A stretch of DNA of 64,000 bases from Vibrio sp. 16. Its GTDB lineage: Bacteria; Pseudomonadota; Gammaproteobacteria; Enterobacterales; Vibrionaceae. The DNA lies in NCBI RefSeq assembly GCF_963681195.1, contig NZ_OY808998.1:248001-312000 (forward strand), in the 5' to 3' direction. The notes under the pieces were generated by a model. That model did not search any database, had not been told where the DNA came from, and saw only the letters and a program-made list of their open reading frames with translations. This document shows positions 2,099-21,107 of the stretch, piece after piece. Each line of letters starts with the position of its first letter. The stretch's first letter is position 1. A program made the translations under genes and the position numbers.

Positions 2099-4156
2099 TT
2101 AGCATTGATGGCCGTCACACGAATCCATCAGTTCGCACACCTCTTCTAACGGCATCGGTTTGTAAAAGTAGTAACCTTGAATCAAAGAAATACCTTGCTG
2201 AGTCACGAAGTCTAACTCTTGCTCTGTTTCGACGCCTTCAACAACCGTTTTTGCCCCCGTTGCTCGAACCAACTCTGTGGTTAAGCGAAACAGCTCTCGG
2301 CCTTTCTCCTGCGTCAAGTTCACAACCAAAGATCGGTCAATCTTGACCTTATCAAACTCGTACTTACACAGATAACCGATCGACGAATACCCCGAGCCAA
2401 AATCGTCCAGCGCGATTTGAATACCAAGCTCACGAAGTGATTTCAACACACTACTCGTTGCTAACTCATCTTGGATCAATAGCTCTTCGGTGATTTCAAA
2501 CTCCACCTGAGTAAAATCAACATCGCTCTGTTCGATAAGTTTACTCACACTCGCAGCAAATCCGTTGACTAAAAACGTTTCAGGAGAAACGTTAATGGAT
2601 ACTTTAAAGTTAGGGTTGCTCGCAAGATCGCACACTTCATAGAGCGCTTGCTTGATCACCCACAAATCCAGTTCAGACGTCAGCCCTAACTTGTTAAAGT
2701 AAGACAAAAAGGTTGGCGGAGTAATCACCCCATCGTAACTGCGGTGCCTTACCAAGACTTCCATCGAGCAAACACACGAGTTTTTAATGTCGTACTGAGG
2801 TTGATAGTAAAGTACAAAATCGCCATTTTGCTGCAAATCTCTGATTGCCTTTTGCGCCACAAGATTACTGCTGACGTGCGGGAACAGGCCATTCACACTG
2901 CGTCCACTTCCGACCTCCTCATAGTTGAAAAAGTCATCACAGGTCTCTTTCGAAAACAACTTGTTTGAGCCAGCCACTTGATCCATCTGCTTAAAAAACG
3001 GCAAGTAGATTGCCATACCAATCACTATGATCACGACTTGAAGAATGCTCGCGGCAATATCGCCACTTGTCGCAAGATACCCACTCATCAGTGGAGGCGT
3101 CATCCAACTAATAAATTCAGAAACCGGCGCCACCCAACCCATTGAAATCGCAAAATACGCGAGTAAGATTCCCGTGATCGGCGCGAGCATGAATGGAACA
3201 AGCAGCACCGGGTTAAAGATGACGGGTAAGCCGAACAGCACAGGTTCATTAATGTTAAACACACTCAAAACCAGTGCTGCCAAAGCCAGTGCGCGATACC
3301 CTCTATTTTTGGCAAAGAACAACATGCAAAATACCAAACTGAGCGTATTGCCCGCCCCGCCGATACCCGCGTAAATGTCGTAAAAATTACTGGTGAGAAT
3401 GGGCAACGGCGTACCAAACTGCGCATTCATCTCAAAACTTGATTGAGTTAATGCATACAGCTCAGATTTGTATGGTGAGAAAATAATGTGCCCATTGATG
3501 CCAATCGACCAGAACAGATTCCTTAGGAACTCATACCAAATCGCGTCAAACAACGAGTGAGTATCAAGAGATGGCAACAAGCTTTGTATATACGAGTTGG
3601 TTTCTAGCCAGTAGCCAACCGCATAGCCCGCGCAAACATATAAAGTGACCAGCAACAATGTGCCCAATACAAGGTTGAGTGACTGATCGACAACATTTGG
3701 CAACTCCGAACGGATGATCCAATTCTTAGAGATTAATCCCCTCACGCTAAACGCTATTAATGCAGGAGTGATGATCGCCAAAGGATAGTTGGATGGCAGT
3801 ACAGAGCCCGCATGCAGCAATCCCCACTCGTTACACAAGATGATGTAAATAAGCAAAGACGGAGTAATGACGGTGGTGCGGGACAGACGATGAAGACGCG
3901 CCAAAAAGTCTGAAAAATAGACAAGCAGCAAGATCGGAAACATTTTCCAAACTAAGGTGCTCACGAACAGAACATGGCTGCCGATTTTTTCAAACCCGAT
4001 GACGTTTAACCCATTGCCAATCAACATACTGAATGCAGAAAGCAAGGAGACTGGCAGCAACATTACAAATACATTACACAAGCCATTTAAGTACGCGTTT
4101 TCTGATACTCGCACGAAAAACGCATACATGGGCTTGTTATCAAACAGGAACTTCAT
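2099..4156 (-). CDS. Membrane c-di-GMP phosphodiesterase, PTS EIIC-like sensor plus EAL domain
   Basis: A 685-aa fusion. Residues 1 to about 400 are a multi-pass membrane region resembling a PTS EIIC (cellobiose/lactose type) permease. Residues about 430-680 are an EAL domain with a complete catalytic set: MEVLVRH in the EAL position, FEITEELL, ALDDFGSGYSS, KIDRS, VVEGVET and QGYYFYKPM. It should hydrolyse c-di-GMP, with the EIIC-like part sensing a sugar or PTS state rather than transporting; no EIIA or EIIB domain is visible. The gene is convergent with acr3 and monocistronic. A leader of up to 300 bases precedes it. Confidence 0.88.
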   Translation of the reverse strand: MKFLFDNKPMYAFFVRVSENAYLNGLCNVFVMLLPVSLLSAFSMLIGNGLNVIGFEKIGSHVLFVSTLVWKMFPILLLVYFSDFLARLHRLSRTTVITPSLLIYIILCNEWGLLHAGSVLPSNYPLAIITPALIAFSVRGLISKNWIIRSELPNVVDQSLNLVLGTLLLVTLYVCAGYAVGYWLETNSYIQSLLPSLDTHSLFDAIWYEFLRNLFWSIGINGHIIFSPYKSELYALTQSSFEMNAQFGTPLPILTSNFYDIYAGIGGAGNTLSLVFCMLFFAKNRGYRALALAALVLSVFNINEPVLFGLPVIFNPVLLVPFMLAPITGILLAYFAISMGWVAPVSEFISWMTPPLMSGYLATSGDIAASILQVVIIVIGMAIYLPFFKQMDQVAGSNKLFSKETCDDFFNYEEVGSGRSVNGLFPHVSSNLVAQKAIRDLQQNGDFVLYYQPQYDIKNSCVCSMEVLVRHRSYDGVITPPTFLSYFNKLGLTSELDLWVIKQALYEVCDLASNPNFKVSINVSPETFLVNGFAASVSKLIEQSDVDFTQVEFEITEELLIQDELATSSVLKSLRELGIQIALDDFGSGYSSIGYLCKYEFDKVKIDRSLVVNLTQEKGRELFRLTTELVRATGAKTVVEGVETEQELDFVTQQGISLIQGYYFYKPMPLEEVCELMDSCDGHQC

Positions 4157-7789: not shown

Positions 7790-8251
7790 TTAAGCGATCA
7801 GCGCAATACCGTGCATAACCACAACGCCCGATGTTAAACGGATTCGAAGCGTTTCATAGCCATTTGGTCCACGCTCTTGTTCTGAGTTCCTTAAGGCAAG
7901 CTCTGCGAGCAACACTAGCCCATAACTGACCGCGAGCAATATGAGCGCTAACCCCACATTGCTCCGCGCTAAAAGTAAGACGCCCCACGAAAGAATGGCA
8001 AACAAGTTACTGAGCAGCAAAGCGTTGCGGCTCATTCGATGTTTCGAATGATCAATAGCGTTCCCCCATAAAACGCCAGAGAGGAAACTCAGAATTACAA
8101 CACTGTAAAACACAAACATTTCCAGTCCGCCTACGCCGAACACACTAATGCTGTTAAGTTGCAAAACCAACCCTACGGCAAAAGGAACTAAGCCAAGGTA
8201 ACCCAAACTCAGCATCGTTGAGCGTGGTTGTTGCGTGCTTTTCACATTCAT
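7790..8251 (-). CDS. DUF3429 family inner-membrane protein
   Basis: A 153-aa protein with about five hydrophobic segments, for example LGYLGLVPFAVGLVLQL and FVFYSVVILSFLSGVLWGNA. The FLSGVLWG motif is characteristic of DUF3429. The start follows AAGGAGATTGAT, a strong SD. Function unknown. It is the conserved left neighbour of the displaced nupC 3' end. Confidence 0.8.
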   Translation of the reverse strand: MNVKSTQQPRSTMLSLGYLGLVPFAVGLVLQLNSISVFGVGGLEMFVFYSVVILSFLSGVLWGNAIDHSKHRMSRNALLLSNLFAILSWGVLLLARSNVGLALILLAVSYGLVLLAELALRNSEQERGPNGYETLRIRLTSGVVVMHGIALIA

Positions 8252-8286
8252 ATCAATCTCCTTATTCGTCGCCTTTTATACGTAAA

Positions 8287-8316
8287 AAAGCCCAAGAAGT
8301 TTCCTACTTGGGCTTT
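8287..8316 (-). terminator. Strong intrinsic terminator, ancestral nupC terminator
   Basis: Stem AAAGCCCAAG/CTTGGGCTTT with a T6 run on the minus strand. It sits just downstream of the nupC 3' relic at 8339-8419 and now also follows the giant gene. Its position suggests it originally terminated nupC. Confidence 0.85.
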
Positions 8317-8338
8317 CAATGCATCATTTAGTTAGTAC

Positions 8339-8419
8339 TTAGAGAAGGATAAAAATACCCGCTAAACACGCACTCATTAGGTTGGCTAATGTACCCGCTG
8401 ATACCGAGGTTAGCAACTT
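8339..8419 (-). pseudogene. Relic of the nupC 3' end
   Basis: On the minus strand it encodes AGTLANLMSACLAGIFILL-stop, exactly the C-terminus of intact NupC at 21108. The DNA matches 21108-21190 closely apart from an 11-base deletion (about 8398) and mostly synonymous changes. It is a detached tail left beside the original terminator and marks the left edge of an inserted block. Confidence 0.88.
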
Positions 8420-8456
8420 AACCCACGAGGTTTGATAAACGATTAAAGCGATGAAC

Positions 8457-9062
8457 TTAGTCACCAAAGTGATAACGAAGGTTTGCACTAAACGTTGTTA
8501 CGTCATTCACATCGATAAAGTATCTTGTGATCTGCCAACCAGCACTCCAGCGTTCAGCAAACTGATAATCCAGCCCCAAACCAACATAAGGGTCAATGCC
8601 ATCGTCACTGCTCTTAATCGTTTCTCCCTGATACTCGCTCTTGTAGTCAACCTCCCAAGCAAAGCCACCCACAATCGCATTAACGCTAGCATTGTTTTCA
8701 TGAAAAAGTTTGTATTGGATATCTAATGCAAACCCTTTTGCCAGTACTGGTGTCACTTTCGCGACACGAGCATGATATTCTGATGGAGGAAGACTCACAT
8801 CGTGATCCAGAGTTGCACTGCCTTCGCCAAGGTCAAGGTAACGACCCGATATAGCCCAGCGATCGGCAAACTGGTAACCCAAACCAAAAGACCACATTAT
8901 ATCGGTACTGTCCTGACTCTGCAGAAATTCATCGTACGCCGATGATCGACCGTCCGCCAGACTCATACCTACATCACCATTGACAAACCAGCTAGCCTGA
9001 CTAGTGAAACAGATCAAAGAGAGAAAGCCCCCTAAAAACACTCGACCACAATGTCGCATCAT
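8457..9062 (-). other. C-terminal outer-membrane beta-barrel module, possible separate ancestral ORF
   Basis: From MMRHCGRVFLGGFLSLIC the sequence looks like a fresh signal peptide with a cleavage-like TSQASW, followed by about 180 residues with eight-strand barrel character: FGLGYQFADRWAISGRY, GLGLDYQFAERWSAGWQ and a terminal NLRYHFGD. It resembles small OmpA/OmpW/AcfA-like proteins. It is in the same frame as the giant protein, directly after the GlyGly-CTERM-like tail, with no stop codon between. ATGs at 9062 and 9059 could initiate separately, but no good SD is visible. Confidence 0.6.
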
Positions 9063-12000
9063 ACTCAACATGCCTAACAACAACACGACTGTAACTCCTA
9101 AACTACCGCCACCGGCACTGTTACTGACTTTACTACCCGCTGTTGGGGTAACGTTCACTGTTACATCTGCATACGCGGTACCGCCATTCCCATCGCTCAC
9201 GCCATAGCGAATTGTATCGGTACCATAAAAGCCTTGCGCAGCACGATAAACAACTTGGTTTTGTTCAATTGACACGCTGCCGAAGGTCGCCGTAGCACTT
9301 ACTACCGATAAAGTGTCGTTATCTGCGTCGCCATCATTACTTAGTACATCAACGGTTACTGAACTATTCAACGCTACATACACATTGTCATTCACTGCAT
9401 TAGGGAGTGTATTGCTCGATGTTGTTGCCACACCGCCTGGATCAACAATCGTCCCATTTTCAATTCCATCATCATCGTTCGGGCCCCCATCTTGCACCGT
9501 TAACTGTACGCACCAATGACCCTCTGTGAGTCCTCTGCTCCAACTTTCATCTCCTGGAGGAGGGCAGTAACCCGCTTCCCCTTGTGTCGATGAAACAAAG
9601 TTTTCACTGTTCGTAACAAAGTCAATCCAACCAAGGTTATCTCGATACTTGCGATATATTGCACTCGCAGGAATAGGTAGGCGTTGTGGGAAGACGATTT
9701 GATATGTCTGTCCCGGAGTCGGTAACCCGTACGCAACGAAATCGAAGATACCGCCAATATTACGAGCTTCTAAGTCATCACTCAGCTCGTTATTCAGAAG
9801 TAGTAGTCCCCCCGTTTCGTTGCTCGCAAGAGTAATACCTTTGCGCAAACAAACGCCCGGTTCTCCTTCCACCAAGTAGTGGTGAGATTCCAAAGCCTGC
9901 TCTTGTACTACGTTACACTCGCTAATGGCATCTTGGTAATCAGGAATACCATCATTATCGCTGTCACCTAACCCCTCTTCGACATCAGGAATAAGGTCAC
10001 CGTCACTGTCTTGACCGCTGACTAAAGTTTCAAGCTGTTCCACGACTTCGATATACACATCACGGGTAACAACTGCCGATGCACTGTCGGTCACTTCAAC
10101 TTGAATTCGATAGATACCGGCTTCTAGTGATTCAGGGCTAAACACGAACTGCGTTGCATCATTACTGATGTTTGCGAGCTGCGCATTATCGTTGATCCAG
10201 CGGTAGCTGTGACTGTCTCCCTGGTTTGCGTCTGTGACTGTTGTCGTAACAGTTACCACTTGGTCACTGTTCTCGATGATTGAACGAGTCTGATCATTTT
10301 GGCTGACCGATACGCTCACCTCTGGAGCAATATTACTCTCAGATATGGTCAGTGTGTAGCTCGACTTACTACCAAGGTTCATACTGTCAACTAAACTGAT
10401 CACCAAGGTTTCAATCCCTTCGTTCACACTGTCATCATTCACCGCAAACTCTATATAGCCTTCTGTTCCATGGCTTATCACTACCTGTCCATTAGTGAGG
10501 CTATGGTCTGAAGCGTCTGCACTACCACTGACGGTATAGTCGACGCTCACCGGATAGCTCGGCGCTTCACCATTAAGATAGACACCTACACGATGAGTCG
10601 AGCCTTCTGTAGTAATGTCATCTTTACCTATTGTGATTAATGGATTCACCGTTACCAGTTGACTGTCTCGCCCTTCGTTACCCTCAGCATCAGTCGCACG
10701 CCAGTAAACAGTATGCAACCCTGGTTCAAAAAAGCTGTCGCTGTCAATCAAAGATACAGGTAGCGCATTACCCTGGCTGTCAATAGCAGTGGCAACACCT
10801 AGGTTGACTTTGGTAAATAGCCCCGTCGCGTTCACCGTGATATCCGCAGCCGCTGTTACCACAGGCGCTTTAGTACTCGATGGTTCAATGATGACTATCG
10901 CTTCACCTGTTGCACTGCCACCATTTCCATCAACGATGCCATAACGTAGGTTTACCAAACCGATATGTGTCGTCGTCAGCGTGATTGCACCTTCACTGAT
11001 ACTTGTGCTTCCTTGATCAGTGGATACCCAGCTCAGTGCCATGACATCCCCATCATCCACGTCGATGTCGTTCTGCAATACATCTAAGGTGTAAATCCCA
11101 TTCTCCGTAACAGGGAAAGTAAAGCGATCATTTTCGGCCACAGGCCCATCATTCACGTTCGTCACGACCAGACTAAACGCAGGTAAGCTCGAGGTTATCT
11201 GGCCATCCGACACGCTGATAACAATACCTGCCGTCGTGCCCACATGCGCATTCTTTGGTGTACCGCTTAACTCACCCGTCACTGTATCAAAGCTTGCCCA
11301 AGATGGTTTATTGGTGATGCTGAATGACAGTGTATCGATTTCAATATCATTCGCTAATGGCGTAAATCGATACGCACTGTCTTCCTCGACTGTTGTAGTT
11401 GGTGTACCACTTATCGTTGGAGCGTCATTAACGCTACCCACTACCACCACAGAAGTCGCAGTGCTACCATCGTCTGTATCGCTTGGGGTTACCATCAGAA
11501 CCACATTCCCGTTACTGTTAGCTGCCGAGGTATAATGAATCTGATTTGTTCCATCTAACCAAAGGTTAATATCCTCTGCTGCGCCAGTTAGCATGACACT
11601 GGCTGTACCTGAACCACTCACGGTGACACCATTAGTGACTCCGTTACCACCGGCAACAGTCAAGCGACCACTGGATACCTGGAATACCAATGTGACCTCG
11701 TCACCTTCGGCATCGCTAACGACAATAGCACTTAAATCAATGTTGCTGATCTCATCTTCTATTGCAGCAAAGCTAGGCACCAACCCAGTGATCACTGGTA
11801 CATCATTTATCTCGGCCACCGCCACTGTAGATGACACCGATAGCGCTGCCGTATTGATGTTGTCACCGCTACTCTCACCACTGTCGGTCAACGCCACCAA
11901 TGTTACTACTCTGGGCTTGTCCACACTTGGGTGATCGCTGCTATGGAAATAAGTGATCCCATTAACCAGAGCCTGCAGTTGCACTTGAGTCAAACTCATA

Positions 12001-15000
12001 CCCGATAACGTGATGGTCGATGTTTGCTCCGTATTCACCACGCTATATGCCAAATTACGGGTAGAGGTCATACCGTTAGCGTTACTGCCTAACTCCAGTA
12101 ACGTACCATCAATAGTCAACACCTCTTCACTAGCATCAATTACATTGCTGACAGTCAATACCAGTCCTGTAAAAGTCTGCCCATTTTCTATTGTGCTAGC
12201 TGCCGCCTGGTTGAACAGTAACACTGCCTCTGCGTTTTCTGTGTAAGTTGAGTTGAGCGCTGATGCCTTGAGGGTTGGTGCATCATTGATAGCCACCAAA
12301 GTTACGTTCGACGCTAGGGCCAAGGTCGCTGTTGCATTTTCACTACCACTGTCTGTGACCGCTGCAATAGTGACCACGCGACGAATATCAACGCTAGGAT
12401 CCTCACTGCCGTTTAGGTAGCGAATACCATTGACTAAGTCCTGGAATGCTTCTTCAGTTAAAGTGGCTCCGTTAAAGGAGACTGTCGCTATGTTATCGAC
12501 TAGTGATACTACAAAATCAAACTCACCCACAGAGCCCGTTTGCCCATGGTTCAATGCAACAGAGTGACCAGATACCATTAAGGCTTCTTCACTTGTATCG
12601 CTGACATTGCTAACAGTCAGAACGAATCCAACTAAAGACTGATCACTTTCCACGGTGCTGACGTCACTCCCTTGATACAGAGCTACCGCTTCACCACCTT
12701 CGATAAAGGTTGGGTTTGTGACGGTCACGGTAAGGGTTGGTGCATCATTGCGACCTGTTACGGTAGTGGTCACCTCATTCGTGCCGGTACTGTTGTCTTC
12801 CCCATCGTTAAAGGTAAAGCTGAGTACAATCGAACTTGCGGGCTCATTCGCCTCATTCTGGTACGTGATATTTTGAAGTACGCCATTAACCATTGCGGTG
12901 GTCGCATTGCTGTTGAAGGTCAGTACTAGTGTCCCACTAGAGTTACGAGTGACTGTTCCCACAATAGTTCCATTGTAGGTTAGCGCTCCTCCTTCAGTCA
13001 GCACTCCTAAATTGCCATGATTCGCAAATAGGTCGTTAGCATTAGCGCCACCTTTACGTTCAATGGTCAATGTCGCACCGTCGTAATTGCCAGCACCACC
13101 GCTAAGAGCATCCAACTCTGCATCACTGACGGAGGCATCACTGTCAATCACGACTGGTGAACCGTCTTCAGTAAACTCCGGTGTCGCATCTAGGTTCGAG
13201 AAAACAGGCGGTGTATTCACTTTACCTGTCATGTCTTCGCTAATAGCCAACGTTAGCTCGCCAGAGGTGGCTTTTAAATTAAAGACCTCACTAATTAAGC
13301 CCGAAGCGGTATAGGTCAGTTGCAGAGCAGTAAACGTCGCGACACCATTGTCAGGAGCAATCGTGACCGTCGCGCTACTCGCATCGGTGTCTCCGGTGAC
13401 CGTCATGATCGCAGACCCTGCCCCATTCACTTCTGAAAGCGTAATGCCTGTCACATAGTCACTGTCCACCACATTGAGGGCATCTCTCGCCGAGATCACT
13501 GGGACCGTGGTCAAACTGGTCGCTTCGGCCGTTTTCACGGAAAGCGGCGCCGGTTGTGTCTCAAAGACCAACTGAGTCGCCACCACATCCGCGATCACGG
13601 CATTCGCCGCCACCGAGGCCAAATCACTGCCGACGCCATCTTGATCGTTGGCCGTGACCGTAAAGCTTTGCTGATCAGCCGTTGCGCTGTAGGTCAGCGC
13701 CGTGAACGTGGCCACCCCATTGACCGCGGCCACCGAGTCGCCCGACAGCGTGCCGTCGCTGGCTTCGGTAAGAGTGACGGTCTCCGTAAAGTCCACGTCA
13801 GTGTTACCGAACGCATCTTGCGCCCGCACAATCGGCTGAGTGGTTAACGCTGAGCCCGAGACCGAGCCAGCCGGTTGCGTGGTAAAGGCCAGCGCTGTCG
13901 CCGTCACCTCCAGCGTGGTGCCACTGCCGTTGTTGACGGCGGTTGTCGCCCCAAATTGGGTGTTGCTGCCGCTGACCGTCACATCAGTGTCACCATCCAG
14001 GCTGAGCAGAAGCGTATTGCCCTCGGTGATGCCGGTGTTGTCATGGTAGTAAGCGTTTAAGGTGTACACCTCCGACGCCCCATCGGCCACCGAAATCGAC
14101 AAGCCTGAGAAGGTAAGCGTATCGGCGCTGGCGTTATACACGCCCGTCACGTTGGTCGCGTCCGGACCACTTAAGCGGTAAGAGATCTTCGCTCGCTGCG
14201 CATCCGAAGCCGTCCCTGCCACATTGACGACAATCTGTGACACTTCAAGAGGGAAGCCGTCCGCGGTGCCCCCATCGGTTAACGTGAAATCAAACAGGTC
14301 AACCGCTTCACCGGTTGTATCGGCGGTGGTTGGCAGCCCCACAGGCTCACTGACGCCCGATGCGGCGGTTAAGCTGGCGTCGTTGTCGGCAACGATCGCC
14401 GTGAGTGGGCTACTGTCCACTGAGGTTAAGCCGCCTGAGCTGGCCCGTATGTTGAAAGATTCACTGCTTCCACCTGAAGCGGTATAGGTCAGTTGCAGGG
14501 CAGTAAACGTCGCGACACCATTGTCAGGAGTAACCGTGACCGTCGCATTACTCGCATCGGTGTCTCCTGTGACCGTCATGATCGCAGACCCTGCCCCATT
14601 CACTTCTGAAAGCGTAATGCCTGTCACATAGTCACTGTCCACCACATTGAGGGCATCTCTCGCCGAGATCACTGGGACCGTCGTCAAACTGGTCGCTTCG
14701 GCCGTTTTCACGGAAAGCGGCGCCGGTTGTGTCTCAAAGACCAACTGAGTCGCCACCACATCCGCGATCACGGCATTCGCCGCCACCGAGGCCAAATCAC
14801 TGCCGACGCCATCTTGATCGTTGGCCGTGACCGTAAAGCTTTGCTGATCGGCCGTTGCGCTGTAGGTCAGCGCCGTGAACGTGGCCACCCCATTGACCGC
14901 GGCCACCGAGTCGCCCGACAGCGTGCCGTCGCTGGCTTCGGTAAGAGTGACGGTCTCCGTAAAGTCCACGTCAGTGTTGCCGAACGCATCTTGCGCCCGC

Positions 15001-18000
15001 ACGATCGGCTGAGTGGTTAACGCTGAGCCCGAGACCGAGCCAGCCGGTTGCGTGGTAAAGGCCAGCGCTGTCGCCGTCACCTCCAGCGTGGTGCCACTGC
15101 CGTTGTTGACGGCGGTTGTCGCCCCAAATTGGGTGTTGCTGCCGCTGACCGTCACATCGGTGTCACCATCCAGGCTGAGCAGAAGCGTGTTGCCCTCGGT
15201 GATGCCGGTGTTGTCATGGTAGTAAGCGTTTAAGGTGTACACCTCCGACGCCCCATCGGCCACCGAAATCGACAAGCCTGAGAAGGTAAGCGTATCGGCG
15301 CTGGCGTTATACACACCCGTCACGTTGGTCGCGTCCGGACCACTTAAGCGGTAAGTGATCTTCGCTCGCTGCGCATCCGAAGCCGTCCCTGCCACATTGA
15401 CGACAATCTGTGACACTTCAAGAGGGAAACCGTCCGCGGTGCCCCCATCGGTTAACGTGAAATCAAACAGGTCAACCGCTTCACCGGTTGTATCGACGGT
15501 GGTTGGCAGCCCCACAGGCTCACTGACGCCCGACGCGGCGGTTAAGCTGGCGTCGTTGTCGGCAACGACCGCCGTGAGTGGGCTACTGTCCACTGAGGTT
15601 AAGCCGCCAGAGCTGGCCCGTATGTTGAAGGATTCACTGCTTCCACCTGAAGCGGTATAGGTGGCCTGTAACCCCGTATAGGTGGCCACCCCAAAGGCCG
15701 GCGTAATCGATACTGTGGCGGCGCTGCCATCCGTATCTCCGGTCCCCGTCATCACGATAGTGCCCGCTCCATTCACTTCTGAAAGCGTAATATCCGTTGT
15801 ATAGCCCGTGTCTACAACGCCGACGCTATCTTGCGCAGATACGACGGGCACGGTGGTAAAACTGGTCGCTTCGGCCGTTTTCACGGAAAGCGGCGCCGGT
15901 TGTGTCTCAAAGACCAACTGAGTCGCCACCACATCCGCGATCACGGCATTCGCCGCCACCGAAGCCAAATCACTGCCGACGCCATCTTGATCGTTGGCCG
16001 TGACCGTAAAGCTTTGCTGATCAGCCGTTGCGCTGTAGGTCAGCGCCGTGAACGTGGCCACCCCATTGACCGCGGCCACCGAGTCGCCCGACAGCGTGCC
16101 GTCGCTGGCTTCGGTAAGAGTGACAGTCTCCGTAAAGTCCACGTCAGTGTTACCGAACGCATCTTGCGCCCGCACAATCGGCTGAGTGGTTAACGCTGAG
16201 CCCGAGACCGAGCCAGCCGGTTGCGTGGTAAAGGCCAGCGCTGTCGCCGTCACCTCCAGCGTGGTGCCACTGCCGTTGTTGACGGCGGTTGTCGCCCCAA
16301 ATTGGGTGTTGCTGCCGCTGACCGTCACATCGGTGTCACCATCCAGGCTGAGCAGAAGCGTGGTGCCCTCGGTGATGCCGGTGTTGTCATGGTAGTAAGC
16401 GTTTAAGGTGTACACCTCCGACGCCCCATCGGCCACCGAAATCGACAAGCCTGAGAAGGTGAGCGTATCGGCGCTGGCGTTATACACGCCCGTCACGTTG
16501 GTCGCGTCCGGACCACTTAAGCGGTAAGAGATCTTCGCTCGCTGCGCATCCGAAGCCGTCCCTGCCACATTGACGACAATCTGTGACACTTCAAGAGGGA
16601 AGCCGTCCGCGGTGCCCCCATCGGTTAACGTGAAATCAAACAGGTCAACCGCTTCACCGGTTGTATCGACGGTGGTTGGCAGCCCCACAGGCTCACTGAC
16701 GCCCGACGCGGCGGTTAAGCTGGCGTCGTTGTCGGCAACGACCGCCGTGAGTGGGCTACTGTCCACTGAGGTTAAGCCGCCAGAGCTGGCCCGTATGTTG
16801 AAGGATTCACTGCTTCCACCTGAAGCGGTATAGGTGGCCTGTAACCCCGTATAGGTGGCCACCCCAAAGGCCGGCGTAATCGATACTGTAGCGGCGCTGC
16901 CATCCGTATCTCCGGTCCCCGTCATCACGATAGTGCCCGCTCCATTCACTTCTGAAAGCGTAATATCCGTTGTATAGCCCGTGTCTACAACGCCGACGCT
17001 ATCTTGCGCAGATACGACGGGCACGGTGGTAAAACTGGTCGCTTCGGCCGAGTTTACTGAAAGCGGTGCAGGTTGTGTCTCAAAGACCAACTGAGTCGCC
17101 ACCACATCCGCGATCACGGCATTCGCCGCCACCGAGGCCAAATCACTGCCGACGCCATCTTGATCGTTGGCCGTGACCGTAAAGCTTTGCTGATCAGCCG
17201 TTGCGCTGTAGGTCAGCGCCGTGAACGTGGCCACCCCATTGACCGCGGCCACCGAGTCGCCCGACAGCGTGCCGTCGCTGGCTTCGGTAAGAGTGACGGT
17301 CTCCGTAAAGTCCACGTCAGTGTTACCGAACGCATCTTGCGCCCGCACAATCGGCTGAGTGGTTAACGCTGAGCCCGAGACCGAGCCAGCCGGTTGCGTG
17401 GTAAAGGCCAGCGCTGTCGCCGTCACCTCCAGCGTGGTGCCACTGCCGTTGTTGACGGCGGTTGTCGCCCCAAATTGGGTGTTGCTGCCGCTGACCGTCA
17501 CATCGGTGTCACCATCCAGGCTGAGCAGAAGCGTGTTGCCCTCGGTGATGCCGGTGTTGTCATGGTAGTAAGCGTTTAAGGTGTACACCTCCGACGCCCC
17601 ATCGGCCACCGAAATCGACAAGCCTGAGAAGGTAAGCGTATCGGCGCTGGCGTTATACACACCCGTCACGTTGGTCGCGTCCGGACCACTTAAGCGGTAA
17701 GAGATCTTCGCTCGCTGCGCATCCGAAGCCGTCCCTGCCACATTGACGACAATCTGTGACACTTCAAGAGGGAAGCCGTCCGCGGTGCCCCCATCGGTTA
17801 ACGTGAAATCAATCAGGTCAACCGCTTCACCGGTTGTATCGGCGTTGGTTGGCAGCCCCACAGGCTCACTGACGCCCGATGCGGCGGTTAAGCTGGCGTC
17901 GTTGTCGGCAACGATCGCCGTGAGTGGGCTACTGTCCACTGAGGTTAAGCCGCCAGAGCTGGCCCGTATGTTGAAGGATTCACTGCTTCCACCTGAAGCG

Positions 18001-19640
18001 GTATAGGTGGCCTGTAACCCCGTATAGGTGGCCACCCCAAAGGCCGGCGTAATCGATACTGTGGCGGCGCTGCCATCCGTATCTCCGGTCCCCGTCATCA
18101 CGATAGTGCCCGCTCCATTCACTTCTGAAAGCGTAATATCCGTTGTATAGCCCGTGTCTACAACGCCGACGCTATCTTGCGCAGATACGACGGGCACGGT
18201 GGTAAAACTGGTCGCTTCGGCCGTTTTCACGGAAAGCGGCGCCGGTTGTGTCTCAAAGACCAACTGAGTCGCCACCACATCCGCGATCACGGCATTCGCC
18301 GCCACCGAAGCCAAATCACTGCCGACGCCATCTTGATCGTTGGCCGTGACCGTAAAGCTTTGCTGATCAGCCGTTGCGCTGTAGGTCAGCGCCGTGAACG
18401 TGGCCACCCCATTGACCGCGGCCACCGAGTCGCCCGACAGCGTGCCGTCGCTGGCTTCGGTAAGAGTGACAGTCTCCGTAAAGTCCACGTCAGTGTTACC
18501 GAACGCATCTTGCGCCCGCACAATCGGCTGAGTGGTTAACGCTGAGCCCGAGACCGAGCCAGCCGGTTGCGTGGTAAAGGCCAGCGCTGTCGCCGTCACC
18601 TCCAGCGTGGTGCCACTGCCGTTGTTGACGGCGGTTGTCGCCCCAAATTGGGTGTTGCTGCCGCTGACCGTCACATCGGTGTCACCATCCAGGCTGAGCA
18701 GAAGCGTGTTGCCCTCGGTGATGCCGGTGTTGTCATGGTAGTAAGCGTTTAAGGTGTACACCTCCGACGCCCCATCGGCCACCGAAATCGACAAGCCTGA
18801 GAAGGTGAGCGTATCGGCGCTGGCGTTATACACACCCGTCACGTTGGTCGCGTCCGGACCACTTAAGCGGTAAGAGATCTTCGCTCGCTGCGCATCCGAA
18901 GCCGTCCCTGCCACATTGACGACAATCTGTGAAACATCTAGCGGCAGCCCATCGCCAGAGCCGCCATCAGTTAAGGTAAAATCAAACAAATTAATGGCTT
19001 CACCGCTACTATCCACCGTCGTTGCAAGGCTGACCGGTTCAGAAACACCATTAGCTGCAGTCAAAGCTCCATCTGAGTCAGCGCTTGGCGCTGAGGCAAC
19101 CAAGTTATCAAATCCAAGCTGCGCGTTAAAATGCATCCCAGAGGTCGTTACAGTAAAGCTTGTTACTCCCGACCAGTTTAAGTTAACCGTTTTTGAATAG
19201 AACCCTGGGCCTATGGTTGACGAGCTGGATGAATCAAACGAAGCACTCGTTACACTGACACTACTATTTGAGCTGCTAGGTGTCGTATCTGTAAATATAT
19301 ATGAACTACCCGTTCTCTTTTGTAACTCAAGAACCGCAATACTGGTGATATCTAGTGCCGAGTTAAAAGTAAAGGTATAGGTAGAGGTATCATTGGCAGT
19401 AAAAACGAGATTTCCATTTAGGTTTCCTGATGGAGAGTCAGTACCATAGTTAAACGTGGAGCCACCATGCCAATTTGACGGGCTCGTTATAGTGTAAGAG
19501 ATGGAATCTACAGAGCTGTTGACTGTCGAACCTGTAACAGATGCTGAGTCCATGGTGTCGGTCGCTGAGAGAGCGGAAAAACTGACCATACTCAACATGA
19601 CCATTGATAGCTGCGCTAGAAATATATTTGATTTATCCAT
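8457..19640 (-). CDS. Giant secreted/surface repeat protein with Ig-like repeats and C-terminal beta-barrel
   Basis: About 3,727 aa from the ATG at 19640 (the frame is open to a TTG at 19655). Order: signal peptide (LAQLSMVMLSMVSFSALSA); a beta-rich N-terminal domain (about 25-190); five 391-aa repeats (about 192-2147), each of three Ig-like modules; cadherin/VCBS-like and putative-Ig modules (about 2150-2925) with DGxG-rich ends; HYR-like (about 2927-3000) and Calx-beta-like (about 3004-3100) segments; a TSP3-like calcium motif DSDNDGIPDYQD (about 3230); a further cadherin-like repeat; a GlyGly-CTERM-like signal (AGGGSLGVTVVLLLGML, about 3508); then a second signal-like helix and an OmpA/AcfA-type barrel ending in F-type LRYHFGD. 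It is likely an adhesin or biofilm matrix protein. The middle is much richer in GC than either end. Confidence 0.85.
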   Translation of the reverse strand: MDKSNIFLAQLSMVMLSMVSFSALSATDTMDSASVTGSTVNSSVDSISYTITSPSNWHGGSTFNYGTDSPSGNLNGNLVFTANDTSTYTFTFNSALDITSIAVLELQKRTGSSYIFTDTTPSSSNSSVSVTSASFDSSSSSTIGPGFYSKTVNLNWSGVTSFTVTTSGMHFNAQLGFDNLVASAPSADSDGALTAANGVSEPVSLATTVDSSGEAINLFDFTLTDGGSGDGLPLDVSQIVVNVAGTASDAQRAKISYRLSGPDATNVTGVYNASADTLTFSGLSISVADGASEVYTLNAYYHDNTGITEGNTLLLSLDGDTDVTVSGSNTQFGATTAVNNGSGTTLEVTATALAFTTQPAGSVSGSALTTQPIVRAQDAFGNTDVDFTETVTLTEASDGTLSGDSVAAVNGVATFTALTYSATADQQSFTVTANDQDGVGSDLASVAANAVIADVVATQLVFETQPAPLSVKTAEATSFTTVPVVSAQDSVGVVDTGYTTDITLSEVNGAGTIVMTGTGDTDGSAATVSITPAFGVATYTGLQATYTASGGSSESFNIRASSGGLTSVDSSPLTAIVADNDASLTAASGVSEPVGLPTNADTTGEAVDLIDFTLTDGGTADGFPLEVSQIVVNVAGTASDAQRAKISYRLSGPDATNVTGVYNASADTLTFSGLSISVADGASEVYTLNAYYHDNTGITEGNTLLLSLDGDTDVTVSGSNTQFGATTAVNNGSGTTLEVTATALAFTTQPAGSVSGSALTTQPIVRAQDAFGNTDVDFTETVTLTEASDGTLSGDSVAAVNGVATFTALTYSATADQQSFTVTANDQDGVGSDLASVAANAVIADVVATQLVFETQPAPLSVNSAEATSFTTVPVVSAQDSVGVVDTGYTTDITLSEVNGAGTIVMTGTGDTDGSAATVSITPAFGVATYTGLQATYTASGGSSESFNIRASSGGLTSVDSSPLTAVVADNDASLTAASGVSEPVGLPTTVDTTGEAVDLFDFTLTDGGTADGFPLEVSQIVVNVAGTASDAQRAKISYRLSGPDATNVTGVYNASADTLTFSGLSISVADGASEVYTLNAYYHDNTGITEGTTLLLSLDGDTDVTVSGSNTQFGATTAVNNGSGTTLEVTATALAFTTQPAGSVSGSALTTQPIVRAQDAFGNTDVDFTETVTLTEASDGTLSGDSVAAVNGVATFTALTYSATADQQSFTVTANDQDGVGSDLASVAANAVIADVVATQLVFETQPAPLSVKTAEATSFTTVPVVSAQDSVGVVDTGYTTDITLSEVNGAGTIVMTGTGDTDGSAATVSITPAFGVATYTGLQATYTASGGSSESFNIRASSGGLTSVDSSPLTAVVADNDASLTAASGVSEPVGLPTTVDTTGEAVDLFDFTLTDGGTADGFPLEVSQIVVNVAGTASDAQRAKITYRLSGPDATNVTGVYNASADTLTFSGLSISVADGASEVYTLNAYYHDNTGITEGNTLLLSLDGDTDVTVSGSNTQFGATTAVNNGSGTTLEVTATALAFTTQPAGSVSGSALTTQPIVRAQDAFGNTDVDFTETVTLTEASDGTLSGDSVAAVNGVATFTALTYSATADQQSFTVTANDQDGVGSDLASVAANAVIADVVATQLVFETQPAPLSVKTAEATSLTTVPVISARDALNVVDSDYVTGITLSEVNGAGSAIMTVTGDTDASNATVTVTPDNGVATFTALQLTYTASGGSSESFNIRASSGGLTSVDSSPLTAIVADNDASLTAASGVSEPVGLPTTADTTGEAVDLFDFTLTDGGTADGFPLEVSQIVVNVAGTASDAQRAKISYRLSGPDATNVTGVYNASADTLTFSGLSISVADGASEVYTLNAYYHDNTGITEGNTLLLSLDGDTDVTVSGSNTQFGATTAVNNGSGTTLEVTATALAFTTQPAGSVSGSALTTQPIVRAQDAFGNTDVDFTETVTLTEASDGTLSGDSVAAVNGVATFTALTYSATADQQSFTVTANDQDGVGSDLASVAANAVIADVVATQLVFETQPAPLSVKTAEATSLTTVPVISARDALNVVDSDYVTGITLSEVNGAGSAIMTVTGDTDASSATVTIAPDNGVATFTALQLTYTASGLISEVFNLKATSGELTLAISEDMTGKVNTPPVFSNLDATPEFTEDGSPVVIDSDASVSDAELDALSGGAGNYDGATLTIERKGGANANDLFANHGNLGVLTEGGALTYNGTIVGTVTRNSSGTLVLTFNSNATTAMVNGVLQNITYQNEANEPASSIVLSFTFNDGEDNSTGTNEVTTTVTGRNDAPTLTVTVTNPTFIEGGEAVALYQGSDVSTVESDQSLVGFVLTVSNVSDTSEEALMVSGHSVALNHGQTGSVGEFDFVVSLVDNIATVSFNGATLTEEAFQDLVNGIRYLNGSEDPSVDIRRVVTIAAVTDSGSENATATLALASNVTLVAINDAPTLKASALNSTYTENAEAVLLFNQAAASTIENGQTFTGLVLTVSNVIDASEEVLTIDGTLLELGSNANGMTSTRNLAYSVVNTEQTSTITLSGMSLTQVQLQALVNGITYFHSSDHPSVDKPRVVTLVALTDSGESSGDNINTAALSVSSTVAVAEINDVPVITGLVPSFAAIEDEISNIDLSAIVVSDAEGDEVTLVFQVSSGRLTVAGGNGVTNGVTVSGSGTASVMLTGAAEDINLWLDGTNQIHYTSAANSNGNVVLMVTPSDTDDGSTATSVVVVGSVNDAPTISGTPTTTVEEDSAYRFTPLANDIEIDTLSFSITNKPSWASFDTVTGELSGTPKNAHVGTTAGIVISVSDGQITSSLPAFSLVVTNVNDGPVAENDRFTFPVTENGIYTLDVLQNDIDVDDGDVMALSWVSTDQGSTSISEGAITLTTTHIGLVNLRYGIVDGNGGSATGEAIVIIEPSSTKAPVVTAAADITVNATGLFTKVNLGVATAIDSQGNALPVSLIDSDSFFEPGLHTVYWRATDAEGNEGRDSQLVTVNPLITIGKDDITTEGSTHRVGVYLNGEAPSYPVSVDYTVSGSADASDHSLTNGQVVISHGTEGYIEFAVNDDSVNEGIETLVISLVDSMNLGSKSSYTLTISESNIAPEVSVSVSQNDQTRSIIENSDQVVTVTTTVTDANQGDSHSYRWINDNAQLANISNDATQFVFSPESLEAGIYRIQVEVTDSASAVVTRDVYIEVVEQLETLVSGQDSDGDLIPDVEEGLGDSDNDGIPDYQDAISECNVVQEQALESHHYLVEGEPGVCLRKGITLASNETGGLLLLNNELSDDLEARNIGGIFDFVAYGLPTPGQTYQIVFPQRLPIPASAIYRKYRDNLGWIDFVTNSENFVSSTQGEAGYCPPPGDESWSRGLTEGHWCVQLTVQDGGPNDDDGIENGTIVDPGGVATTSSNTLPNAVNDNVYVALNSSVTVDVLSNDGDADNDTLSVVSATATFGSVSIEQNQVVYRAAQGFYGTDTIRYGVSDGNGGTAYADVTVNVTPTAGSKVSNSAGGGSLGVTVVLLLGMLSMMRHCGRVFLGGFLSLICFTSQASWFVNGDVGMSLADGRSSAYDEFLQSQDSTDIMWSFGLGYQFADRWAISGRYLDLGEGSATLDHDVSLPPSEYHARVAKVTPVLAKGFALDIQYKLFHENNASVNAIVGGFAWEVDYKSEYQGETIKSSDDGIDPYVGLGLDYQFAERWSAGWQITRYFIDVNDVTTFSANLRYHFGD
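13200..19065 (-). repeat. Five tandem 1,173-bp repeats within the giant gene
   Basis: Identical landmarks recur every 1,173 bases (for example at 13840, 15013, 16186, 17359 and 18532), so each unit is 391 codons in frame. Units are near-identical over hundreds of bases. The third sub-module exists in two versions: ISARDALNVVDSDYVTG in the two units nearest the C-terminus, and VSAQDSVGVVDTGYTTD in the other three. Repeat lines I counted by hand are 60-68% G+C, against 42-45% in sampled flanking parts of the same gene. Confidence 0.95.
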
Positions 19641-20175
19641 AATCGATTGACTCAAACATGCACTATGCTCGTTTTTTAGCCCTAGTGATGCTAGATACTG
19701 TTAAGTCCATTTATATTCAAGTGGGGGAAATTTATGAAGGAAGAGTACGAGTTGCAATTGGTCCGCCTCATCCTGATACATCCATATATTCATTATGATG
19801 CATTATATTCTGGACAATTTTATATTCTCACCATCAATGATGATGTGATCTTCTTTCCATTTTTATGAACTAAAATGCCAAAAGTGCAAAGTCAACCCCT
19901 CATACTTTTCGTTTAATCTGATCCAGCTAGACTCAACGCTTCGTTCATCATCAACTTCATTAGCTACCATACTCAACGTCAAATCAGTGATTTCCTTAGA
20001 GGTCTATACAGATTCATCGCAAGGTATCGTCAAGTAATGTTCCAGAGTTTTTTGAACTTTATGTCTATAGTAAATGTGGCGCTATCCACAACCACATTTA
20101 CCATTTAAATGCCATAATATTTAACCATTCGCACCACCCATAATAAAAATTGAACTCATTAAAGAGGACTTTACT
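19641..20175. other. Divergent intergenic region of the giant gene and the collar-domain gene
   Basis: 535 bases without a credible gene, between divergently transcribed genes. It is AT-rich. It contains a perfect 10-bp inverted repeat, GTAAATGTGG/CCACATTTAC (20070-20079 and 20092-20101), about 75 bases before the collar gene start, which could be an operator. AGAGGA precedes the collar ATG. Promoter hexamers could not be assigned with confidence. Confidence 0.5.
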
Positions 20176-20877
20176 ATGTTCAGTACTAATCAGTTGGTTT
20201 CAAAAAAACAACTCCTGCTCGCCGGGGTCATGCTCTCGGTATCCAATAATGTATATGCCTCATGCGTGCCAGAACCTTATATAGGGTCAACCTGCACCAC
20301 TGCGGCTAATTTCTGTCCAAGAGGTTATCTCCAGGCCAACGGAAGTCTGTTGGCAATATCAGACCACACCGCTCTCTATTCCTTACTAGGAACCCGCTAC
20401 GGTGGCAACGGCACAACTAATTTTCAACTACCAGATCTAAGAGGTAGGTCTGCTATCGGTAGTGGAAATAGCCCTGGCCTGAATGAAGCCATATTGGCAC
20501 GTAAATATGGGTCAGAGACACAAACACTTACGGCTTTGAACTTACCTGCGCACACGCATGCAGCTAGCGCTTCGGGTGGCGGTGTTACTGTTCAGTTAAT
20601 AGCCTATTCTGGTAAGGGAACAAGCCCCGAACCAACAGATACAGATTACTTTCTGCAAGGTGTCGCACAAAATAGCTTTAGCTACAACCCGGAAGCGATG
20701 TTGTACGGCAAGGGTGAAGGAGATGCGATACCCTTGGAGGGAATCTCTACGAATTATGCCCCACCCTCAATCTATATCCATCCTACTGGTTACAACCACC
20801 CATTTAGTATTCGCAGTCCATCGCTAGCGCTCACTTACTGCATCGCTGTAGATGGCCTGTACCCTCCTCGAGGTTAG
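20176..20877 (+). CDS. Secreted phage tail-collar-domain (microcystin-dependent-like) protein
   Basis: 233 aa. The N-terminus QLLLAGVMLSVSNNVYAS is a signal peptide, unusual for this normally cytoplasmic or phage-type family. The collar domain is clear: NFCPRGYLQANGSLLAIS, LYSLLGTRYGGNGTTNFQLP, DLRGRSAIG, GSETQTL and LPAHTH. This is the core seen in microcystin-dependent (Mdp) proteins and phage tail collars. It lies divergent from the giant protein inside the same inserted block, so the two may work together at the cell surface; that link is inference. The SD AAAGAGGA is strong. Confidence 0.82.
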   Translation: MFSTNQLVSKKQLLLAGVMLSVSNNVYASCVPEPYIGSTCTTAANFCPRGYLQANGSLLAISDHTALYSLLGTRYGGNGTTNFQLPDLRGRSAIGSGNSPGLNEAILARKYGSETQTLTALNLPAHTHAASASGGGVTVQLIAYSGKGTSPEPTDTDYFLQGVAQNSFSYNPEAMLYGKGEGDAIPLEGISTNYAPPSIYIHPTGYNHPFSIRSPSLALTYCIAVDGLYPPRG

Positions 20878-21107
20878 TGGACTCAATGGGTTTACCGATT
20901 GGTCATCGCGACTTTAGCGGTGGCCAATTTTATGTGCTTTTCCCACGGCAATTTTAAAGCGCGCAAACCTATAAGCAGCTCTTAATTCGCTATAGTTGCT
21001 ACATACTTTCAATTGCTTTAGCGAAAAGTGTTCTCACCTTGATTTGCTTCTCAACATCTAGGGTGGGTCGTGCTAGCCGCTCCTCATCTCAGTAATCTAA
21101 CTGATAC

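Follow-up and report, generated by a model that had tools for sequence, protein, structure and literature searches.

The stretch of DNA analysed here (the window; 64,000 nt from Vibrio sp. 16) contains a giant gene on the minus strand, the open reading frame (ORF) of which runs from 19655 to 8457 and is free of stop codons across 3,732 residues when read from a TTG codon; an alternative ATG start corresponds to residue 6 of the TTG-started ORF. The gene and its parts are as follows.

8457..19655, minus strand: giant gene encoding a passenger, an internal GlyGly-CTERM-like tag, a putative internal signal peptide and a barrel; 3,732 aa from TTG
19563..19640, minus strand: N-terminal signal-peptide-like sequence MDKSNIFLAQLSMVMLSMVSFSALSA, assigned by reading
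13252..18243, minus strand: passenger tandem repeats of 1,173 nt (391 aa) with five 300-nt cores in register, from a repeat search
9426..9752, minus strand: choice-of-anchor U domain, residues 3302-3410 (NF041766, 39.4 bits, cut-off 32)
9153..9413, minus strand: Big_9 Ig-like domain, residues 3415-3501 (PF17963, whole-protein score 90.8 bits)
9042..9113, minus strand: internal GlyGly-CTERM-like tag GGGSLGVTVVLLLGMLSMM followed by RHCGR, residues 3515-3538 (by reading, by TIGR03501 at 14.9 bits and by relatives)
8994..9041, minus strand: second hydrophobic segment VFLGGFLSLICFTSQA, residues 3539-3554, taken to be an internal signal peptide that ends in SQA ahead of the barrel (by reading and by relatives)
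8460..8993, minus strand: barrel with the OmpA transmembrane fold, 178 residues (3555-3732), by Pfam, AlphaFold and Foldseek

A domain scan of the giant protein revealed cadherin/Ig-like domains in the passenger. The repeat cores are spaced by exactly 1,173 nt and, compared to the reference copy, one is 91% and three are 69–71% identical; the repeat exceeds the 500-nt limit of Tandem Repeats Finder and was seen by another repeat search. Elsewhere in the window, a phage tail collar domain protein is encoded upstream of the giant gene (20176-20877, plus strand), and a 685-residue protein in which PTS EIIC permease and EAL c-di-GMP phosphodiesterase domains are joined is encoded at 2099-4156 (minus strand).

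The initial annotation had placed a GlyGly-CTERM-like tail at about residue 3508, and the motif GGGSLG was located close by, its first residue being 3515 in TTG-based and 3510 in ATG-based numbering. The junction reads SNSAGGGSLGVTVVLLLGMLSMM-RHCGR-VFLGGFLSLICFTSQA, after which the barrel starts with SWFVNGDVG. As in GlyGly-CTERM, a Gly-rich motif is followed by a hydrophobic helix and then by a basic cluster, although the RHCGR cluster is weak. The score of the window tail against the GlyGly-CTERM model TIGR03501 lies below the cut-off of 15.5 bits, and the tail is thus borderline when taken alone; the tail of a related locus (L006) scored 13.7 bits against the same cut-off, and a whole-genome TIGR03501 scan of the window genome did not return the giant protein, matching instead two other proteins of the ordinary GlyGly-CTERM kind. 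What raises the tag above chance level is its conservation across 22 fused tails, hand-chosen by the analyst, the alignment of which has nine invariant columns, including G6, G7, R24 and W46. The GlyGly-CTERM tag is described as located at the extreme C-terminus (PMC3237569), whereas 194 residues lie beyond the basic stretch in the window protein. These begin with a segment that by reading resembles a signal peptide, RHCGR-VFLGGFLSLICFT-SQA providing a basic n-region, a hydrophobic core and small residues at positions -3 and -1. An AlphaFold model rendered residues 11-41 of the window tail, which span both helices, as one continuous helix at a pLDDT of about 49–52 and does not support a hairpin, so the hairpin is a reading of the sequence itself.

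The barrel was recognized by both profile and fold as being of the OmpA type. It scored 37.9 bits against Pfam OMP_b-brl (cut-off 28.7) and 28.5 bits against OmpA_membrane PF01389 (cut-off 21), and AlphaFold, with the window tail and ten named Shewanella relatives as input, gave a mean pLDDT of 82.6, with 15 of 18 ten-residue blocks from residue 51 onwards averaging at least 88. The best solved match of the barrel in Foldseek was OmpA (9fzc, E 1.1e-10, TM 0.79 by target length), while a sequence search of solved structures with the tail profile gave zero matches at E 0.01. Type Va autotransporters have a twelve-stranded translocator barrel joined to the passenger; Pfam Autotransporter was not among the Pfam matches of the window barrel, and the giant protein instead has an OmpA-type barrel and two intervening hydrophobic segments. 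The frame had been described as running on into a signal-like helix and a barrel of about 180 residues, and a single frame was confirmed; the earlier observation of a tag, a second signal-like segment and a barrel in one frame is genuine.

The fused frame was found well beyond the window. In the genus survey, 47/227 genomes matched A2, a profile built from two tails, at E 1e-6, and at least 14/227, including the window genome, had the junction within one open frame of at least 569 aa; G005, G090, G108, G167 and G233 gave partial matches, the frames being roughly 900 aa long. The Shewanella-containing family (the family of G041) yielded matches to A2 in at least 122/152 genomes and the junction in a single frame in at least 45/152, one of these frames being 429 aa long. 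A sample of the whole class contained 84/369 genomes matching the A3 profile and the fused form in at least 21/369 (hosts), including the window genome and covering 13 family groups, where a host was defined by a match starting at profile position 8 or earlier in a stop-free frame of at least 500 aa. One of these 21 hosts (G603, L175) was counted from its survey match, its barrel having failed the script, and 20/21 were read by eye; G567 (L147) shows the hairpin by eye yet was counted with the 63 other barrel-match genomes, since its match starts at position 22. A first scan of genome contigs returned zero relatives and a second returned ten Shewanella loci, all of them fused, with frames of at least 1,223 aa within the fetched DNA, and Shewanella sp. 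ANA-3 is among the carriers of the fusion; these loci overlap the genomes of the family survey, and the tail of at least one is identical to that of an already surveyed genome. The viral contigs scanned yielded zero relatives.

The passenger domains vary among the seven proteins scanned, encompassing Ig-like, TSP3, FG-GAP and lectin-like (below cut-off) domains, and three of the seven end, on the C-terminal side, in an OmpA cell-wall domain. G376 encodes three paralogues of the fusion whose tails are almost identical (L066, L095 and L096), while the rhombosortase match of this genome lies in two overlapping frames, and the fusion of G133 (L131) is broken by a frame change past most of the barrel. 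The tail profile was unmatched in G179, labelled as the same species as the window genome, where flanks of 97–98% identity enclose other genes; by reading, the site of the giant gene (window 7800-21100 compared to L204) is there occupied by sulfatase, radical-SAM maturase-like and von Willebrand/MoxR-like genes. The giant gene is thus accessory and its site variable. At three further loci (L140, L145 and L151), the two helices are absent and a related barrel is joined to other domains. One protein, encoded by G502 (L194:3822-5564), has an OmpA cell-wall domain and two Big_9 domains followed by an OmpA barrel, so that its domain order is inverted relative to that usual for OmpA.

To describe the junction, 80 distinct junctions were picked for the hairpin layout (58 by script and 22 by eye), 78 of which were parsed. 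In the junctions that were read directly, the glycine motif leads into one helix and, past a basic loop, into another, after which a small-x-Ala site (with few exceptions) precedes the barrel. The loops of the parsed junctions are 3–30 residues long with means of 3.69 R+K and 0.29 D+E, and 75/78 are net positive, a loop starting by definition at R, K or H; a simple rule located a small-x-Ala site past the second helix in 74/78. The parser misplaced the motif in L147, L167, L168 and L170 and left L139 and L173 unparsed. A stricter second parser, which drops L109, L147, L176 and L177, gave net positive loops in 76/76, but its score rewards charge and this number is not evidence. Excluded from the 80, as the hairpin was not seen, were L058, L145, L140, L144, L151, L155 and L179, of which L140, L144, L151, L155 and L179 have more than 300 residues ahead of the barrel.

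Relatives in which each part has an ORF of its own and the order is unchanged, which the initial annotation had proposed to look for, were found as adjacent genes in eight genomes (G032, G293, G273, G251, G260, G336, G388 and G123), with two such loci each in G293 and G273. When spacing is taken from the first ATG, five pairs from three genomes (G032, G293 twice and G273 twice) overlap by 4 nt and the remaining pairs lie at -7, +3, +7 and +22 nt, the start in G123 being ambiguous. The upstream ORF of the pairs ends in a GlyGly-CTERM-like tail, lacking the double glycine in two of the eight genomes (G032 and G251), and the barrel ORF opens with a signal-like sequence of its own. The same survey found 13 further separate barrel genes without a tagged neighbour; the family of barrels is thus not bound to the tag. 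A barrel tree was constructed by a quick search from 77 chosen and thinned barrels (50 hairpin, 8 split, 3 direct and 16 other); support is below 80 on 23/74 inner branches. Seven changes between the fused and split forms are needed on this tree, and the split label requires at least four changes on well-supported branches. Separation and rejoining of the halves, with each retaining its processing signal, would be expected if the mature products are separate.

The cleavage of a terminal tag by rhombosortase is known from experiment, VesB being cut at the glycine motif and its product reaching the surface via type II secretion (PMC6219818, PMC11389362). The cleavage suggested earlier for the giant protein depended on such an enzyme, and the window genome carries both a rhombosortase (TIGR03902, 170 bits, cut-off 84) and the type II secretin GspD (532 bits). 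In the class sample, rhombosortase was found in 21/21 hosts compared to 29/63 other barrel-match genomes (p = 3.4e-6) and 105/348 remaining genomes (p = 4.8e-11); leaving out the window genome gave p = 3.8e-6 and 1.4e-10, respectively, and as the host genomes are related, all of these p-values overstate independence. Its presence in 76/76 listed genomes of the two main groups is uninformative by itself, all of these having been picked for barrel matches. The fusion polyprotein gene of G708 (L192:3310-6029), which encodes 691 residues and shows a weak lectin-like match, is directly followed by a rhombosortase frame that starts at the end of the fusion gene, with its first ATG 41 nt past the stop codon, and a second rhombosortase is encoded elsewhere in this genome. 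In G687, a rhombosortase is clustered with an ordinary tagged protein and with a barrel gene of the OmpA type that is convergent. Among the hairpin-free loci, rhombosortase was not matched at E 1e-18 in G502, while the genomes hosting the other two do carry it.

The giant gene most likely encodes an envelope polyprotein, from which cuts by rhombosortase and signal peptidase I would produce a surface protein together with its OmpA-like partner. From the layout of the junction we infer that the N-terminal signal peptide would direct the passenger into the periplasm, and that the GlyGly-CTERM helix would halt in the inner membrane, its basic end facing the cytoplasm. The second hydrophobic segment would then cross back as an internal signal peptide, placing both passenger and barrel in the periplasm and leaving the loop alone in the cytoplasm. 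A rhombosortase cut at the glycine motif is predicted to release the passenger, which would be modified at its new C-terminus and exported to the surface by type II secretion, and a signal peptidase I cut after SQA would release the barrel for outer-membrane insertion, the short hairpin being discarded. The products would probably form a 1:1 pair of surface protein and barrel partner, as do TraA and TraB. The initial annotation had proposed that rhombosortase frees the passenger beside its own anchor; the split ORFs, the rhombosortase of the window genome and its presence in every host of the class sample lend the processing indirect support, whereas the anchor is a guess, and the barrel may not be a tether but a partner of the passenger, comparable to TraB in its relation to TraA. 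A role of the passenger as an adhesin with a barrel partner is likewise suggested by analogy.

A recent stop-codon loss, an internal start and an autotransporter were all ranked below the processing of a polyprotein. Two products could come about through translation if the barrel were made from an internal in-frame codon and the useless extension of the full-length chain were removed at the tag. The split pairs show such a start to be workable, an ATG, GTG or TTG of some kind is present in 73/78 junctions, and two ATG codons without a Shine-Dalgarno match lie just ahead of the second helix in the window, where a minor internal start is possible. An in-frame ATG with a Shine-Dalgarno match was, however, found in only 2/78 junctions (3/76 with the second parser) as against 23/39 separate barrel genes, a looser test that accepted any in-frame ATG before the barrel and included near-identical genes; any start codon with such a match occurred in 10/78 (12/76), and five of the 78 junctions have no start-type codon, two of these through a misplaced motif. 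Predicted internal starts are rare and not conserved across the fused junctions, which makes this explanation unlikely. The initial annotation had brought up a stop-codon loss. A recent event of this kind, or a change of frame, joining two genes of this strain into a fusion without function would fit the unmatched G179 with its other cassette and the broken copy in G133. Such an event is contradicted by the conservation of the fused frame in other genera, the form being present in 13 family groups of the class sample as well as in the two other surveys, and we regard it as highly improbable.

A surface protein that stays in one piece and uses its C-terminal barrel as the anchor would follow the general order of autotransporters, in which the passenger precedes a C-terminal barrel. 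The three loci in which a related barrel is joined to other domains without the two helices are consistent with such a design, one of them being the OmpA-domain/Big_9/barrel protein from the genome without a rhombosortase match. For the giant protein and its fused relatives this design is decidedly improbable, given that two hydrophobic helices and a basic loop are conserved between the parts, the barrel has the OmpA fold, the parts exist as separate genes with their own signals and the hosts possess rhombosortase.

Extending the processing of a polyprotein from the window to the whole class, we lean towards an envelope system where one chain would be split by an intramembrane sorting protease together with signal peptidase I, thereby fixing a 1:1 supply of surface-anchored protein and outer-membrane barrel partner. 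Rhombosortase would in that case routinely act mid-chain, with the protease gene directly downstream in at least one genome, and the fused form would interchange with adjacent or 4-base-overlapping genes. If this is true, rhombosortase tags need not sit terminally, and lists of substrates based on C-terminal matches therefore overlook a class to which giant adhesin-like proteins belong. It would further mean that Gammaproteobacteria have a TraAB-like pair of surface protein and barrel within one gene, that polyprotein processing is an ordinary route in the bacterial envelope, and that barrels can be named as partners for proteins with unexplained surface attachment.

Parts of this arrangement have counterparts in other systems. 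FbcH of Bradyrhizobium is a cytochrome b/c1 polyprotein in which signal peptidase cleaves at an internal signal peptide; it differs from the window protein in yielding inner-membrane cytochromes and in lacking a sorting tag and an outer-membrane protein. In Haloferax, a non-terminal tripartite sorting signal of an ArtA substrate is said to still work (in a 2017 study in J Bacteriol), although the enzyme there is an archaeosortase and not a rhombosortase. VesB-type GlyGly-CTERM proteins share the glycine motif, transmembrane helix and basic residues with the window protein, whose genome has the rhombosortase and type II secretin to go with them (PMC6219818, PMC11389362, PMC13393428); the window tag differs in being internal, with the frame continuing into a second signal and a barrel. 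TraA and TraB of Myxococcus xanthus, a sorting-tagged receptor followed by a barrel gene, are encoded by ORFs with a 4-base overlap, a feature shared by five split pairs found here, and form 1:1 complexes (PMC3325183, PMC12045341). Unlike in the window, these are two genes with a different sorting tag, and TraB ends in an OmpA domain; the likeness drawn here is one of layout.

The closest counterpart is MXAN_5598, also from Myxococcus xanthus, in which an internal MYXO-CTERM precedes a barrel; it has been in print since 2025, was termed atypical, and its authors suggested gene fusion and processing of the N-terminal part (PMC11980579). Like the window protein, it comprises a large adhesin region, a mid-chain sorting tag and then an outer-membrane barrel, so the idea has already been published for the myxosortase system. 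MXAN_5598 is a single case with MYXO-CTERM and myxosortase in place of GlyGly-CTERM and rhombosortase, and it contains an OmpA cell-wall domain that is missing from the window protein and present in some of its relatives. The available parts of the report do not mention an internal signal peptide for MXAN_5598 (PMC11980579), whereas one was read in the window protein. No description of an internal GlyGly-CTERM ahead of a barrel was found in the literature surveyed, as far as its available text extends. The window system is thus best regarded as a widespread rhombosortase variant of a known idea, with putative cleavage at both sites, to which the present analysis adds the rhombosortase counterpart, its breadth, the candidate internal signal peptide, the split forms that recur and the co-occurrence with the protease.
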